Assembly (NCBI GenBank): GCA_028279305.1
Contig: JANQOA010000072.1
Location: forward strand, 1-35,426
Reading direction: 5' to 3'
DNA: 35,426 bases
Source of the DNA: Pseudomonadales bacterium
Lineage (GTDB): Bacteria; Pseudomonadota; Gammaproteobacteria; Pseudomonadales; Azotimanducaceae
In this document: positions 21,256-27,616 of the stretch, piece by piece
Numbering within the stretch: the first letter of the stretch is position 1
Layout of the letters: the number at the start of each line of letters is the position of its first letter
Position numbers and translations under genes: made by a program
Notes under the pieces: model-generated
What the model was told of the DNA's origin: nothing
What the model saw: only the letters and a program-made list of their open reading frames with translations
The model's database searches: none

Positions 21256-22599
21256 GTGCGTCAGCATCAACCCCCCGACAGGTCAAACGCAGACGTTGCA
21301 GAAGCGGCTGCCGCTGACCGCAGCGGTGAGGAACTGAACTCGCCTCTCAAGCGCACGCTGACCCGGCCGCAACTGATTCTGTACGGCCTGGGCACCACCA
21401 TCGGCGCCGGCATATATGCCCTGCTGGGGGAAATTGCCAACATTTCCGGCTACCTGGCACCCTGGGCGTTTGTGTTGGCGGGCCTGTTAGCCGGCTTTAC
21501 AGGGCTGTCTTTTGCGGTGCTGAGCAGCCGTTATCCCCGTGCCGCCGGCAGCGCGCTGTATGTGCAGAAGAGCTTTAACGCACCCCGCCTGGCTACCGCC
21601 GCGGGTTTGCTGGTGATGTTTGCCGGGGTGGTATCCGCCGCCACCCTGCTGAACGGTTTTGTCGGCTATGCCCAGGAATTTCTGCACCTCGAGCGCAACA
21701 CCGTTATTGCCCTCGCAGCCGTTTGTATCACCATGCTGGCAGTCTGGGGAATCAGTCAATCGGTGTGGCTGGCAGCGGCGATCACGCTGCTGGAAATCGG
21801 CGGCCTGCTGTGGGCAACCGGTCTGGCGGGGCTGTCCGTGCAGGCGCCGGACTTTTCTCTGTTCATTACCCCGCCGCAGGCTCTTGTAACCCCGCCGCAG
21901 GCTCTTGTAACCCCGCCGCAGGCGCTGCCGGATGGCGCCGGGGCGGGCGCCGCGCTGGCGGTTGTGATCAGCGGTGCGGTGCTGGCCTTTTACGCCTTCA
22001 TCGGCTTTGAAGACATGGTTGAGGTGGCGGAAGAAGTCCGCGACGTAAAACACGCCATGCCGGCTGCCATCATCATCACCCTGTGCCTGACAACCTTACT
22101 GTATGGCGTCCTCATGGTGGCCGCGTTACTGGCTGTGGGGCCCGGCTATCTGGCTGATTCCAGCGCCCCGCTGCCGGATCTGTTTCGCGCGCTGGGCCAC
22201 AATCATCCCCGGGTGATTTCATTTATCGGCGCCCTGGCAATTATCAACGGCGCCTTGATTCAAGTCATCATGGCCTCCCGGGTGTTTTACGGCCTGGCTT
22301 CCCGTGGGCAACTGCCCGCGATCCTGGCGCGGGTAAATCCAACCACCCGTACACCCTGGCTGGCAACCCTGCTGTCCGGGACCGCCATACTGCTGCTGGC
22401 GCTGGCCGGCAACCTGGTGCTGCTGGCGGAACTGACCTCGGTACTTATCCTGCTGGTCTTTACCCTGGTTAACGCGGCACTGTTTAATCTGCAACGGCGT
22501 GCTGCCGGGCGCCGGGCTGTGCTTCAGGTCAGCAGTTTGATCGGCGCCGCGGCGTGCCTGGCGCTGGTGTTCTACACCCTCAGCGGCTGGCTGACCTGA
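21256..22599 (+). CDS. APC superfamily amino acid permease
   Basis: This 447-aa integral membrane protein has about 12 hydrophobic helices. The first carries GLGTTIGAGIYALLG, the substrate-binding unwound helix of APC transporters, and FYAFIGFEDMVEVAEEVRD is the typical TM6 region. It probably imports amino acids or amines with protons. The GTG start at 21256 has no good ribosome-binding site, so the first 20-30 residues are uncertain. The loop at residues 205-224 carries a TPPQALV repeat. No pathway partner is adjacent. Confidence 0.88.
   Translation: MRQHQPPDRSNADVAEAAAADRSGEELNSPLKRTLTRPQLILYGLGTTIGAGIYALLGEIANISGYLAPWAFVLAGLLAGFTGLSFAVLSSRYPRAAGSALYVQKSFNAPRLATAAGLLVMFAGVVSAATLLNGFVGYAQEFLHLERNTVIALAAVCITMLAVWGISQSVWLAAAITLLEIGGLLWATGLAGLSVQAPDFSLFITPPQALVTPPQALVTPPQALPDGAGAGAALAVVISGAVLAFYAFIGFEDMVEVAEEVRDVKHAMPAAIIITLCLTTLLYGVLMVAALLAVGPGYLADSSAPLPDLFRALGHNHPRVISFIGALAIINGALIQVIMASRVFYGLASRGQLPAILARVNPTTRTPWLATLLSGTAILLLALAGNLVLLAELTSVLILLVFTLVNAALFNLQRRAAGRRAVLQVSSLIGAAACLALVFYTLSGWLT
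21868..21923 (+). repeat. In-frame 21-bp tandem repeat in the permease
   Basis: ACCCCGCCGCAGGCTCTTGT plus A (21 bp, seven codons: TPPQALV) is repeated exactly at 21868-21888 and 21889-21909, with a partial third copy to about 21923. The period keeps the reading frame, so copy number can change without killing the gene. It lies in an extramembrane loop before the TM6-like helix. Confidence 0.9.
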
Positions 22600-23133: not shown

Positions 23134-23712
23134 TTGAAACAGCACCTAAGAATGTCCCACAAAGTGTTTGTGGTTGCCTTGCTCAGCTTGGTTGCCCTGG
23201 CGGCGTTGCTTCTGTCTCCGGCGGCGGCCTGGGGTGAAGGCAAACCACTGCCCGGCGACCCGGAACGCGGCCGTTATCTGACCGAAATCCTCGGCTGCGG
23301 CGGCTGCCACACCGAGGGTGCGCTGCTGGGTGCACCCACCGGGCCCTGGCTGGCGGGTTCCAAAATCGGCGTGGCTTACGAAGAGAATGAAGAAGGTCAA
23401 CCCACTGCCGTGGTATTTCCCGCCAACCTGACGTCGGATAAAGCCACCGGCCTGGGCCGCTGGCGCGAACAGGACATCGTGCACCTGTTGCAGACCGGCC
23501 GCAAACACAACGGGCAGACTGCCAATCCGGTGATGCCCTGGATGAACTACAGCCTGTTGCTGCCTCAGGACATGGCGGACATCGCCGCCTATCTGCACAA
23601 CCTGGCGCCGGTGAAGCGCCGGATCCCCGCGGCCATCGCCCCGGGGCAGCCGATCCGCGAGCCCTATGTGCGGATCGGCGTGTATATGTTCACCCCAATT
23701 CCGGACGAGTAG
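23134..23712 (+). CDS. Class I cytochrome c, dehydrogenase-subunit type
   Basis: This 192-aa exported cytochrome has a hydrophobic N-terminal segment (about 10-32, cleaved or anchoring) and one haem site Cys55-x2-Cys58-His59 (GCGGCH). The later block NLTSDKATGLGRWREQDIVHLLQTG and VMPWMNYSLL (likely Met ligand) resembles cytochrome subunits of membrane alcohol or aldehyde dehydrogenases. The TTG start at 23134 is supported by AGGGAGG six bases upstream. It overlaps the convergent desaturase gene by 23 bases. No dehydrogenase partner is adjacent. Confidence 0.9.
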   Translation: MKQHLRMSHKVFVVALLSLVALAALLLSPAAAWGEGKPLPGDPERGRYLTEILGCGGCHTEGALLGAPTGPWLAGSKIGVAYEENEEGQPTAVVFPANLTSDKATGLGRWREQDIVHLLQTGRKHNGQTANPVMPWMNYSLLLPQDMADIAAYLHNLAPVKRRIPAAIAPGQPIREPYVRIGVYMFTPIPDE

Positions 23713-24571
23713 ACGCGCCCAGCCGGGTAGCCGCGGCGCCGGGCAGCGGCTCCGGCGCGCTGACCAGAGGCCAGAAGAGTTGTTCCGCAACGCTGGTTTC
23801 AGGCAGGTTTTCGACGCCGAATTCCTCGGGATAGCGCCGGGTGATTTTTGCCGTACCGAACAACACGTCCCAGAAGAACAGCAGGTTGCCGTAGTTGCCT
23901 TTGTAATGGGTGACCCCGTCCGCCAGATGTTTGCCGTGGTGGGCGCTGTGGGTAGCGGGTGTGGAAATGGTACGCTCCAGCACCCACATCAGCGGCGACA
24001 GCCATTTAATGCGGTACAAGGCCTGATCCCAGCGTACATCCGAATGTGCGCCGAAAATGACCGTCATTTTCACCACGATGTAGACTGCATAGACCCAACC
24101 GGCGCCGAGATACACCAGGATCCCCGACAACCACAAACCCGGCATCAGCAGGTAGTAGAACAGGTTGTTGCGGTACACCACCCGGATGGACAGATAACCC
24201 GCATTGTGATGGGGACGGTGCAGCTTATAGAGCCAGGGTACGGTGTGCGACAGACGGTGCCAGCCGTACTGGGTGAGATCGTCAAATATGAGGAACAACA
24301 AAAACACGCCCCAGAACGGCCAGCTTTCCAAGGCGCCGCCGTAAGCGGGCAGCAGCAGCGCACCCAGCGCAATACCGCTGGTCAACACCAGCGGCTGGAT
24401 CAGCACCGACAGAGCGCCGGTGCTGAGCAGTTCCACCACGCCGTCGCCGCGGCGCTGCCCGGGTTTACGGAAAAAGCGCGTAAACAGTATCTCCAGCACA
24501 ATAAAGGTGCTGAAGATGGCCAGGATGGCAATCACTTCCGGTGCCAGACCGTTTGCGGTGATCGGGTTCAT
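23690..24571 (-). CDS. Sterol desaturase/fatty acid hydroxylase family protein
   Basis: This 293-aa membrane di-iron enzyme has several hydrophobic helices and the three histidine clusters of the family: HRLSH, HRPHH and HSAHH. These bind two irons that activate oxygen for C-H hydroxylation or desaturation of lipids. The ATG at 24571 has AAGGTGG eight bases upstream; a GTG at 24583 is less likely. It lies behind a TetR gene on the same strand, with a palindrome at 24636-24655 in the gap. The substrate is unknown. Confidence 0.92.
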   Translation of the reverse strand: MNPITANGLAPEVIAILAIFSTFIVLEILFTRFFRKPGQRRGDGVVELLSTGALSVLIQPLVLTSGIALGALLLPAYGGALESWPFWGVFLLFLIFDDLTQYGWHRLSHTVPWLYKLHRPHHNAGYLSIRVVYRNNLFYYLLMPGLWLSGILVYLGAGWVYAVYIVVKMTVIFGAHSDVRWDQALYRIKWLSPLMWVLERTISTPATHSAHHGKHLADGVTHYKGNYGNLLFFWDVLFGTAKITRRYPEEFGVENLPETSVAEQLFWPLVSAPEPLPGAAATRLGASTRPELG

Positions 24572-24635
24572 GACGGTTTCCACCTTCTTGGAGCAGTGCA
24601 GATGGCGGACACTGTAGCCGGTGGCCCGAGACTAG

Positions 24636-24655
24636 AATGCTAAATAGTTAGCATT
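24636..24655. promoter_or_regulatory. 20-bp perfect inverted repeat before the desaturase gene
   Basis: AATGCTAA-ATAG-TTAGCATT is an exact palindrome with a 4-bp centre, a typical TetR-type operator size. It lies 65 bases upstream of the desaturase ATG and overlaps AT-rich -10-like sequence on the minus strand. The candidate binder is the TetR protein encoded just upstream or an unlinked regulator. Confidence 0.6.
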
Positions 24656-24682
24656 TGATCTTGGCCTTGAACTTGAACGGAT

Positions 24683-25240
24683 TTATCCCAGGCCGTGGAA
24701 AAACGTACGTTTAAATCCGTCAGCAGCCTGCCGTGGTGACATTTCGCCGCGCCGCACCATCAACCAGCCGGCGTACAGCAGGCTGTCAAACACGGACACC
24801 ACCCAGGCGTCGGATACATCCGCTTGAATGTCACCGTCCTGCTTGGCCTGGCCAACCAGGTCCGCCAGTTCGTCGAGCTGCCGCTGATAGACCGCGCGCA
24901 CCTTTTTATTGCCGCTGGCAATGTCCCACAGACTGAGCAGAAATTTGAAGCGGTCAGCCATGGGCAGCAGCACGTCTATGGCCGCTTCTATCGCCGCCCG
25001 GCCGCGCAGCCCCTGTTGTTTCAACGGCGCCATCAGTTCGTCCGTTTCTTCCAGGCACTGCCGGGCCAGGTATTGCACCAGCAGGTCTTTGGATTCGAAA
25101 TGCCGGTACAAAGTGGCGCGGCCGATGCCGGCGGCCAGGGCGATTTCCGACATCCCGGCATCCGGATTACGCAACAGCACCTGTATGCTGGCTTCTATGA
25201 TCGCGCGCTGCGACTGAAGTACTCGCGGGTCTTGGCTCAC
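24683..25240 (-). CDS. TetR/AcrR family transcriptional regulator
   Basis: This 185-aa protein has the helix-turn-helix SEIALAAGIGRATLYRHFES at about 30-49 and a helical ligand domain. It starts with GTG at 25240 (MSQDPRVL). It diverges from the Rieske/LLM pair and is followed by the desaturase on the same strand. It could bind the symmetrical repeat at 25259-25305, the palindrome at 24636-24655, or both; the sequences of the two sites differ, so one regulator for both is not assured. Confidence 0.9.
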   Translation of the reverse strand: MSQDPRVLQSQRAIIEASIQVLLRNPDAGMSEIALAAGIGRATLYRHFESKDLLVQYLARQCLEETDELMAPLKQQGLRGRAAIEAAIDVLLPMADRFKFLLSLWDIASGNKKVRAVYQRQLDELADLVGQAKQDGDIQADVSDAWVVSVFDSLLYAGWLMVRRGEMSPRQAADGFKRTFFHGLG

Positions 25241-25258
25241 TGGAAACCTTGTGGATGA

Positions 25259-25305
25259 GACAGGGTTGTATCATAAACCCATTCTGTTTATGATACAACC
25301 CTGTC
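25259..25305. promoter_or_regulatory. Perfectly symmetrical divergent promoter (20-bp arms)
   Basis: Two exact 20-bp inverted arms (25259-25278 and 25286-25305) flank a 7-bp centre. Each strand contains TTGTAT, 17 bp, TATGAT: plus strand -35 at 25266-25271 and -10 at 25289-25294; minus strand -35 at 25298-25293 and -10 at 25275-25270. Each -35 thus overlaps the other promoter's -10. The start points would be near 25301 (+) and 25262 (-), giving short leaders of about 22-26 bases. The arms can also act as operator for the neighbouring TetR protein. Confidence 0.75.
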
Positions 25306-25326
25306 CCATAGATTCGGCCCAATGTT

Positions 25327-26490
25327 ATGCCCGCGCAAACCCTCCTCAACGAGTTGAAACAGGCGGCCATGCAGCCCCTGGAAACCGCCCATTCACTGCC
25401 ATTTGCCGCCTATACCGACAATGCGGTGCTGGCGGCGGAGGCACAACACATTTTCCACCGCGAATGGGTATTCGTCTGCATGGCCGGGGAACTGCCCGAT
25501 GCGGGTGATTACTATGCGCTGACCCTGGCCGGTGAACCCATTATTGTCATGCGCGGTGAAGACGGGCATCTGTGCACCCTGGCCAACATCTGCCGCCACC
25601 GCGGCACGGTGCTGTTGGATGCCGGGTTCGGCCGGGTGGACAAATATATCGTATGCCCCTATCACGCCTGGGCTTACGCCAAAGACGGCAGCCTGCAGGC
25701 GATCCCCTTTAACGAGCAGATACACGTGGACCGCACCGGCCACACCCTCAGCCGCTTTCAATGCGCTGAATGGAACGGCATGGTATTTGTCAACCTGGAC
25801 CCCCAGGCTGCCCCCCTGAGCACGCGCCTGCAGGGCATCGACCCGTATCTGGCAATGTTTGAACCGCAGACCTTCAGCCATTGCAGCGGTGGTACGGCGG
25901 AAACCTGGTTAACCAACTGGAAGCTGGCCATGGAGAACGCCATGGAAAGCTATCATCTGTTCAAAGTGCATGAAAACACGCTGGAAACCTACTCCCCCAC
26001 CCGGCAGGCCTATTACATTGCCGGCAGCAGTGAATGGACCCTGACCGGCGGGGCTACGGCGCGCAAAAAGGGCTTGCTGGAAAAGGTGTTCGGCGCTTCT
26101 TACAGCGAGCTGTACGAACACTACATCCTGGTTTCGCTGCCGCCTTCTTTTGTTGGCGTGCTCACTTACGGTTCGTTCGGCTGGCTGTCCGCTCACCCGG
26201 TGGATGCCGGTACCACCCTGATCCGCTCCGGCGCCACATTCACAAAAGACGGTTCAGGCGGCAGCCCGCAGAGTGACGAATTCACCCGGGCGTTTTTTGC
26301 TGAAGACCAGCAGATGTGCGAACGGGTGCAGACCGGCATGAGCGCAACGCTCTCCCGCGGCGGTAAATTGGTGGACATGGAGCGGGTGGTGGTGGACTTC
26401 CATCAGTTTCTGGCCACCCGTTTAAGCCGCCAGCCCGCTACGCCGCTGTTTGAAGACAGCATGGCGCAACGTTTTCTGGCCGGAGCCTGA
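25327..26490 (+). CDS. Rieske ring-hydroxylating oxygenase, alpha subunit
   Basis: This 387-aa oxygenase has the Rieske site Cys89-x-His91 and Cys110-x2-His113 (NICRHRG, CPYHAW), and the mononuclear iron region NWKLAMENAMESYH with His210 and His215. It is smaller than the protein at 1728-3317 and only distantly similar. The ATG at 25327 lacks a clear Shine-Dalgarno; the leader from the symmetrical promoter would be about 26 bases. It is followed two bases later by an LLM flavin monooxygenase. No dedicated ferredoxin or reductase is present, and the substrate is unknown. Confidence 0.92.
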   Translation: MPAQTLLNELKQAAMQPLETAHSLPFAAYTDNAVLAAEAQHIFHREWVFVCMAGELPDAGDYYALTLAGEPIIVMRGEDGHLCTLANICRHRGTVLLDAGFGRVDKYIVCPYHAWAYAKDGSLQAIPFNEQIHVDRTGHTLSRFQCAEWNGMVFVNLDPQAAPLSTRLQGIDPYLAMFEPQTFSHCSGGTAETWLTNWKLAMENAMESYHLFKVHENTLETYSPTRQAYYIAGSSEWTLTGGATARKKGLLEKVFGASYSELYEHYILVSLPPSFVGVLTYGSFGWLSAHPVDAGTTLIRSGATFTKDGSGGSPQSDEFTRAFFAEDQQMCERVQTGMSATLSRGGKLVDMERVVVDFHQFLATRLSRQPATPLFEDSMAQRFLAGA

Positions 26491-26491
26491 T

Positions 26492-27616
26492 ATGGTTGAA
26501 TTTGTCATTCTGGCGGTACCCTACATGCGCCGCCGCGGCGAGCAGGTTGGCCGCGCGGGCTCGGACCCGCAGCGCTTTCAGCTGTTGATGGAAGACATGC
26601 GCACGCAGCTGCGTTTTGCTGAACAACTGGGTTATGGCGGTTTCTGTTTAACCGAACAGCACCTGCAGGTGGAAGGCATCGAAACCACCACCAACCCGCT
26701 GTTCTGGAACATGTACATCGCCCAGCACACGGAAAAAATGCGCGTCGGGCAACTGGGGATGAACCTGACTGCGGTAAACCCCATTCAACTGGCGGAAAAC
26801 CTCGCCATGCTGGACCACTTTACCCAGGGCAGAATGTTTGCCGGCTTTTCCCGCGGCAACACCGCCCGTTGGACAGGGACCTTCGGTCAGCATCTGGGCA
26901 TCACTTCCACCGAATCCGACAAGTCGGAGGCGGACCTGCGCAACCGCCGCGCCTTCACCGAAAACTGGCAGCTGGTCAAAGCCTTGTGGACCCAGGAGAC
27001 CGTGTCCCTGCAGGGAGAGTTCTGGCAGGTGCCGCCGGCCATGGACTGGAGCTTTAATCCGACCCGGGATTGGTCCCCGGACAGCGTTGACGCAGACGGC
27101 AAGCTGCGGGCCATAGGCATTGTGCCGCGGCCGCTGCAACAACCCATGCCCCCGGTCTATGCGCCGTTCAGCTACAGCATGGAAACGGCAAAATTCTGGG
27201 CCCGTGAAGGCGGCAAGATGATGAGCATGGTCAGCGAAGAGAAAGAAGAATTTATCCCCATCACCCTGGAGGTATGCCTGCAGGAAGCCCATGATCACGG
27301 CCGCCGCATAGCCGCTGATGACTTACTGGCGCTGGGCGGTCATCTGGTAATGGGGCGTAATCCGGCGGAGACCCGGGATCTGTATAACGGCTTTGAGGAG
27401 TTGTTTAACTTTGCCTACAACGCACCCCCCTACCAGGTCCCCATGGGCCGCCTGTGGACCGGATCCCAACAGCAGGTGCTGGACCATGTCAGCCGCCTGC
27501 GCGACAGTTACGGCATCAGCGAATTTTTCCTCTGGCATCACGTCGGCTACTTTGAGCAGGAACAGGAGATGGCGATGCTGAACGAGTTTGCTGAAGGGGT
27601 GATCGCAAAGCTCTGA
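26492..27616 (+). CDS. LLM class flavin-dependent oxidoreductase (bacterial luciferase-like)
   Basis: This 374-aa protein has the luciferase-like TIM-barrel pattern: EDMRTQLRFAEQLGYGGFCLTEQH at the front (read in parts), the central MRVGQLGMNLTAVNPIQLAENLAMLDH region, and GRMFAGFSRGN. Such enzymes use reduced FMN and O2 to oxygenate or desulfonate substrates. The ATG at 26492 is chosen because it follows the Rieske stop by one base; an in-frame ATG at 26450 lies inside that gene. The tight Rieske-LLM pairing suggests one pathway, with an unlinked flavin reductase. Confidence 0.88.
   Translation: MVEFVILAVPYMRRRGEQVGRAGSDPQRFQLLMEDMRTQLRFAEQLGYGGFCLTEQHLQVEGIETTTNPLFWNMYIAQHTEKMRVGQLGMNLTAVNPIQLAENLAMLDHFTQGRMFAGFSRGNTARWTGTFGQHLGITSTESDKSEADLRNRRAFTENWQLVKALWTQETVSLQGEFWQVPPAMDWSFNPTRDWSPDSVDADGKLRAIGIVPRPLQQPMPPVYAPFSYSMETAKFWAREGGKMMSMVSEEKEEFIPITLEVCLQEAHDHGRRIAADDLLALGGHLVMGRNPAETRDLYNGFEELFNFAYNAPPYQVPMGRLWTGSQQQVLDHVSRLRDSYGISEFFLWHHVGYFEQEQEMAMLNEFAEGVIAKL

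Follow-up and report, generated by a model that had tools for sequence, protein, structure and literature searches.

The palindrome and its gene neighbourhood

What function is served by a 47-bp palindrome lying between two genes that are transcribed away from each other, one for a TetR-family regulator and one for a Rieske oxygenase? Here we examine such an element in a stretch of 35,426 bases (the window, meaning that whole stretch), which belongs to a fragmented assembly of 399 contigs (97.41% complete, 6.56% contamination). The two arms, GACAGGGTTGTATCATAAAC (25259-25278) and GTTTATGATACAACCCTGTC (25286-25305), are exact 20-bp reverse complements around the 7-bp centre CCATTCT, as the preliminary description of this DNA had stated, and with one mismatch they extend to 24 nt (25255-25278/25286-25309, 23/24 or 96% identity). 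The palindrome is the longest perfect inverted repeat of the window (gap up to 20), the next independent one being 10 bp long. That such symmetry lies far beyond chance, as had also been claimed, agrees with first-order Markov simulations (n=6), in which the longest inverted repeat was 12 bp and two of the six runs gave none of at least 10 bp. No second copy of the arm core occurs within the window with up to three mismatches, and a 111-bp query (25230-25340) searched against the whole genome matched only its own locus, once per strand, so that a mobile or repeated element was rejected.

The flanking genes are those previously named, tetR on the minus strand and the Rieske gene on the plus strand (Table 1), and their divergent starts are separated by a short gap of 86 bp. 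The TetR_N domain of the regulator scores 36.1 bits (cut-off 24) and provides the N-terminal helix-turn-helix expected of the family. The protein reaches no curated NCBIfam cut-off and could not be linked to a characterised regulator; among solved structures, the best match of the TetR alignment is LfrR (PDB 2v57, E 4.6e-20), a mycobacterial efflux repressor of the same family. The Rieske protein partially resembles glycine betaine monooxygenase GbcA (138 bits vs a cut-off of 670). It is followed by a luciferase-like monooxygenase gene that likely starts at ATG 26492 rather than at TTG 26450, where the mechanical ORF begins, the matches of relatives starting at residue 15-16 of that ORF. Since this ATG lies one base past the Rieske stop, the two oxygenase genes are probably co-transcribed. 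On the other side, the fatty-acid-hydroxylase-superfamily gene downstream of tetR may share the tetR transcript; its ORF overlaps a cytochrome c ORF on the plus strand tail to tail by 23 bases (23690-23712). Elsewhere in the window, the short peptide TPPQAL recurs in frame, three times in all, within an amino-acid permease ORF (21256-22599), which probably reflects a small tandem repeat.

Table 1. Positions of genes, candidate operators and candidate promoters in the window
Feature	Position	Strand	Details
Fatty-acid-hydroxylase-superfamily protein	23690..24583	-	PF04116; downstream of tetR, same strand
TetR-family regulator	24683..25240	-	185 aa; GTG start at 25240; TetR_N PF00440, E 5.4e-9
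Operator OL (candidate)	25255..25274	.	ATGAGACAGGGTTGTATCAT = ATGAGACA-GGGT-TGTATCAT; 0 mismatches to ATGANACA-N4-TGTNTCAT
Candidate Rieske promoter	25266..25294	+	-35 TTGTAT 25266-25271; 17-bp spacer; -10 TATGAT 25289-25294; geometry kept in relatives
Candidate tetR promoter	25270..25298	-	-35 TTGTAT 25298-25293; 17-bp spacer; -10 TATGAT 25275-25270
Linker between OL and OR	25275..25289	.	15 bp; sequence variable; length 15 in 12/16 two-site loci
Operator OR (candidate)	25290..25309	.	ATGATACAACCCTGTCCCAT = ATGATACA-ACCC-TGTCCCAT; one mismatch to consensus, in the outer half
Rieske non-haem oxygenase	25327..26490	+	387 aa; ATG 25327; PF00355, PF00848
Luciferase-like monooxygenase	26492..27616	+	PF00296; likelier start

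Several window genes have close relatives in other genomes of the same genus, among them ArsR (88% identity in L010) and the luciferase-like protein, which L006 and L008 match at 81-85% over ~110 residues; this favours assignment of the contig to that genus. In L006 and L008, a related TetR is followed on its own strand by a stretch of Rieske sequence (30-32% identity) and then by the luciferase-like gene, a hint that the oxygenase pair is conserved in a different arrangement.

Two candidate operators and their conservation

Each arm of the palindrome overlaps its own separate, imperfect 20-bp dyad of the consensus ATGANACA-N4-TGTNTCAT. The gap thus contains two palindromic dyads, the predicted operators OL and OR, which are 35 bp apart from centre to centre. 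The earlier reading of the palindrome as a repressor target and two-way promoter agrees with this arrangement, but the single 47-bp unit gives way to two parts: most likely, the unit consists of two separate 20-bp candidate operators of the adjacent TetR.

Relatives were collected from several searches. The TetR protein was searched in the genomes of 97 relatives (nine with matches at E 1e-10), a 12-row TetR alignment in genomes of the class (2/369 matched at 1e-25), the family (23/206) and the order (18/381), and the Rieske protein in genomes of the order (17/390 matched at 1e-60); the genomes searched with TetR and with Rieske overlap between sets, and the genome of the window is among them. 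Among 39 other same-genus genomes (G001-G039), four contain a TetR match at E 1e-10, with 34-36% identity. After duplicate removal, 48 TetR loci were scanned over 400 bp upstream (397 bp in L145, only 32 bp in L143) for the consensus with up to three mismatches. Two sites 28-50 bp apart were found upstream of tetR in 16 of the 48, with a spacing of exactly 35 bp in 12 and of 31 (L018), 33 (L165), 36 (L141) and 47 bp (L139) in the others. The 32 loci without such a pair comprise 16 with no site (including L143), 15 with one, and L160, in which two sites are separated by 20 bp. Across the 48 loci combined (168,280 bases, up to three mismatches) the consensus occurs 69 times and its reversed form three times, a count that is partly circular, the consensus having been derived from a subset of these very loci, and that does not represent independent observations, since the loci are related by descent; the 35-bp spacing is free of this circularity. 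Palindromes upstream of the regulator's own gene, candidate sites for a TetR dimer, are present and conserved among relatives. Two TetR relatives (L153 and L154) contain in-frame stops and are likely decayed copies.

The gene divergent from tetR at the twelve 35-bp loci encodes a Rieske protein in nine (the window, L131, L161-L164, L166, L167 and L169), a HlyD-type membrane fusion protein in two (L168 and L170) and a DUF2141 protein in one (L171). Beside the 33-bp pair of L165 it is again a Rieske gene (L106), and beside the 36-bp pair of L141 a 402-aa frame that appears HlyD-like by eye. The sites were also scanned from the Rieske side in 19 fetched loci. Eleven have a divergent TetR gene, with eight pairs at 35 bp (the window included), one at 33 bp and two single sites. 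L100, with TetR on the same strand as Rieske, has no operator site, and among the seven loci without TetR in the fetched stretch, four have no site (L107, L109, L112 and L113), two share one identical site (L115 and L116), and L099 is too short. The two single-site loci are distant divergent TetR-Rieske relatives (L111, the place of L133, and L114, the place of L134), which suggests that one site is the functional unit. The preliminary description had held that relatives with only one arm conserved would speak against it, and with these two this is in part the case.

The search was extended with TetR relatives from the genome collection (the best 80 of 214). In this set, only L018 exceeds 30% identity across almost the whole TetR; a number of others (L020, L025 and L065, for instance) show 25-28% over most of it, and many are short matches to the DNA-binding domain only. 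The operator scan took in L018 alone; the neighbour comparison took in all 80, and at E 1e-8 no locus other than L018 showed a match to a further gene of the window. A close relative of the exact palindrome site was not found in these comparisons, the gene of the nearest Rieske relative (G308, 67%) lying at a contig end with its upstream region outside the comparison.

Candidate promoters apparently sharing bases with the operators

Both strands contain the hexamers TTGTAT and TATGAT 17 bp apart, as had been reported, and on both strands these overlap both candidate operators. The accompanying claim that each -35 lies on the -10 of the other strand is incorrect, the overlap being 2 bp only (25293-25294 and 25270-25271). 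The -35 is weak, with TTGTAT matching three of the six bases of the textbook consensus TTGACA, and since the whole promoter scores 8/12, a sigma-70 consensus scan with a threshold of 9/12 reported no promoter in 24500-26500. The view that overlapping divergent promoters lie between the TetR and oxygenase genes nevertheless gains support from their geometry, which is kept in the relatives. If they are active, transcripts are expected to start near 25301-25303 for the Rieske gene and near 25263-25261 for tetR. Each copy of TATGATA is self-symmetric, so additional inner start sites are possible.

Some bases appear to serve operator and promoter at once. The fifth base of the half-site (position 5), which the operator leaves free, is T in 21/24 inner halves and in 1/24 outer halves of the 12 loci with 35-bp spacing, the outer halves otherwise having A or G (nominal Fisher P 3.6e-9, for a contrast noticed post hoc and with kinship uncorrected). 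The inner T coincides with the last base of the -10 TATGAT. In these loci, the -10 ends in T in 12/12 on the side of the divergent gene and in 9/12 on the tetR side, where it ends in A, C or G at L161, L163 and L164. The base preceding the half-site does not discriminate inner from outer halves and seems to belong to the operator, since it is commonly T both inside (23/24) and outside (21/24). The 15-bp linker between the operators sets the spacer of both promoters at 17 bp.

Symmetry of the arms

The long symmetry of the window varies across the relatives. Over 24 nt, arm-to-arm identity in the 12 loci ranges from 13 to 23, with 23 in the window, 22 in L168 and L170, and 13-18 in the other nine. 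Bases flanking the operators match within a locus at 11/36 positions (permuted mean 12.7), with no excess over the between-locus level. Given this range of identities and the level of the flanks, the long-arm symmetry is not what is maintained. The comparison of orthologous intergenic regions that had been proposed as a check divides: the operators, the 35-bp spacing and the inner T are conserved, but long-arm identity is not.

It had been suggested that the symmetry reflects selection or gene conversion between the arms. The N4 cores of the two operators do match within loci more often than expected (23/48, permuted mean 16.4; P 0.007, or 0.011 without L167), but the flanks show no such excess, nor do N4 and flanks taken together (P 0.13). 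In the sister loci L166 and L167, no mirrored changes were seen by eye. Template switching between inverted arms is a known process (described in PMC8604942), and homogenisation of the arms by template switching or gene conversion may conceivably have occurred here, to which the N4 excess lends a weak hint.

Candidate operator pairs elsewhere in the genomes

Two sites joined by a linker of exactly 15 bp, with T required in the inner halves (three mismatches allowed), form a pattern that is present in 10 of 381 genomes of the order, the reversed pattern being present in none among the matches listed. All ten fall within the 18/381 TetR-positive genomes, a co-occurrence with a hypergeometric P of 3e-15 that is inflated since most pairs adjoin tetR. 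With position 5 free and at most one mismatch, single sites number 75 (27 reversed) in 16 TetR-positive genomes and 22 (16 reversed) in 16 other genomes, five of which are listed as lacking a TetR match and 11 of which are taken to be among 343 unlisted ones. Among the matches listed for these 32 genomes (position 5 free), every close pair falls in a TetR-positive genome, 13 with a spacing of 35 bp and one with 36 bp; these listed pairs leave out the sites of G077, G068, G078, G088, G125 and G268 and part of those of G346. In the window's genome alone, the single-site pattern is as frequent as its reverse at up to two mismatches (6 vs 6), and at up to one mismatch with R/Y at position 4 the counts are 6 vs 0.

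The same genome contains a second pair, also 35 bp apart and not beside a tetR gene (G000:C361:10831-10885; L123 5332-5386), flanked by genes for a DUF2141 protein and a fatty-acid hydroxylase. Its hexamers are TTGTAT-17-TATAAT, and the base that departs from the operator consensus creates a perfect consensus -10. In G308, TetR adjoins DUF2141, the same type of gene as beside this pair. The second pair suggests a small regulon. Two other genomes of the genus, G114 and G222 (L187 and L179, around 1501), contain 35-bp pairs between beta-propeller and HD-domain genes, with Pfam assignment of the G114 proteins only and the HD-domain gene appearing dGTPase-like by eye. The window's genome also encodes a paralogous TetR (G000:C367:4944-5519; L125) with 38-39% identity, whose own start is preceded by a single similar site. 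A fatty-acid-hydroxylase-like stretch lies near the paralogue.

Proposed switch and alternative explanations

We consider it probable that the palindrome comprises two TetR operators 35 bp apart, whose inner halves double as promoter elements, forming an autoregulated two-gene switch. The half-site TATGATACA would supply the -10 of one promoter (TATGAT) and, on the other strand, part of the opposite -35 (TTGTAT), the linker length holding both spacers constant. A TetR dimer on either operator would cover one promoter at its -10 and the other at its -35, and because each operator overlaps elements of both promoters, one bound dimer would hinder both genes and two would shut both. This is in line with the earlier proposal that a repressor on the arms acts on both genes. 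Both would be released on loss of DNA binding, presumably caused by a ligand akin to the substrate of the oxygenase. Binding by the adjacent TetR, promoter activity, repression and induction by a ligand are inferred here; the outcome would be an autoregulated control of the Rieske and luciferase-like oxygenases.

It was originally suggested that the element is a single symmetric promoter at which two RNA polymerases compete, with symmetry selected for a balanced rivalry between tetR and the oxygenase genes. The same hexamers and 17-bp spacer do occur on both strands, and their overlap makes joint occupancy unlikely, so polymerase competition between the two promoters is possible. We nevertheless regard selection for such rivalry as an unlikely explanation, given the arm matches of 13-23/24 across the 12 loci, with flanks at the between-locus level, and the existence of single-operator relatives. 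In the five E. coli bidirectional promoters tested in PMC12825309, polymerase competition was insignificant at the basal level, the promoters being too weak to compete; it appeared once one direction was strongly activated, which could repress the other, and competition is not to be presumed for the window. A structural role, with arm pairing selected for a cruciform, an RNA hairpin or a bidirectional terminator, is highly improbable. From the sequence, the 20 exact pairs and 7-base loop could fold in either strand, and a weak terminator-like call of five pairs lies inside the palindrome; against this, the bases following the full stem are not T-rich, in 9/12 loci the two 24-base arms agree at just 13-18 positions, with no excess in the flanks, and hairpin pairing would not require the features that are conserved, namely the 20-bp dyad and the spacing. 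Terminator, hairpin and cruciform were accordingly rejected as the selected feature on the arm comparison across the 12 loci.

A different regulator, for example the C367 paralogue, might instead be the main reader of the sites, with the adjacent TetR secondary; we think this alternative quite improbable. The paralogue's own upstream site (ATGATACATTAACGTCCCAT) is similar, but in 12 loci the 35-bp pair precedes a gene for a relative of the adjacent TetR, the ten pair-bearing genomes of the order are all TetR-positive, and the second pair is associated with DUF2141, which adjoins TetR in G308. A broader and doubtful idea is that a TetR subfamily uses a fixed 55-bp operator-15-operator cassette, its operators and both promoters built from common bases, at unrelated targets (Rieske/luciferase-like oxygenases, HlyD-type exporters and DUF2141/fatty-acid hydroxylase). 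With arms that are inverted copies separated by 15 bp, template switching at replication would keep the operators alike and make the switch self-homogenising, the window containing a nearly perfect example.

Comparison with known divergent systems

The element is most likely a compact version of a switch like that of Tn10 tetR-tetA rather than a new kind. The Tn10 control region was reportedly described by Bertrand in 1983, and its operators, tetO1 and tetO2, are spaced by about 30 bp, compared with 35 bp from centre to centre here. Unlike in Tn10, the two operators are in near-perfect mutual symmetry and the target is an oxygenase instead of a pump. The layouts are otherwise alike: a regulator gene of the TetR type points away from its target across a gap with two palindromic operators, the divergent promoters overlap (here predicted) and both genes are repressed (here proposed); no membership by sequence is claimed. 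As outlined in PMC3511530 and PMC11686294, Tn10 TetR binds two operators and represses both tetR and tetA. The operators differ in sequence and size, being 20-bp ATGANACA-N4-TGTNTCAT dyads here, a 19-mer for tetO2 of Tn10 in PMC11686294, and 15-bp palindromes in the terms of PMC3511530.

Repression of a divergent neighbour has precedents: in Streptomyces, all five regulators tested with gaps of less than 200 bp acted in this way (PMC3511530), and AcrR, a member of the TetR family, represses the two transcripts made from the bidirectional promoter of acrA/acrR (PMC12825309). In the bidirectional promoters described by Warman, Grainger and colleagues, acrR/acrA among them, symmetric promoter DNA serves both strands, as predicted for the window. 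Their start sites lie 7-25 bp apart, usually 18, around one shared -10 (PMC10268837), whereas the window has two separate -10s and predicted starts ~38 bp apart, a sequence arrangement outside that class as the source defines it. The five E. coli promoters of PMC12825309 also share a -10, in a geometry different from the window's.

Implications

The general understanding of divergent promoters is unchanged by this locus. A TetR group with no tie to a characterised regulator is now given a candidate operator, target genes and predicted start sites. The position-5 T would be a clear natural case in which a single base is both a free operator position and a key promoter base, and the locus illustrates how a striking long palindrome can result incidentally from a pair of shorter functional sites. 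With its 35-bp spacing fixed at different targets, the arrangement could serve as a compact part for two-way regulated promoters.
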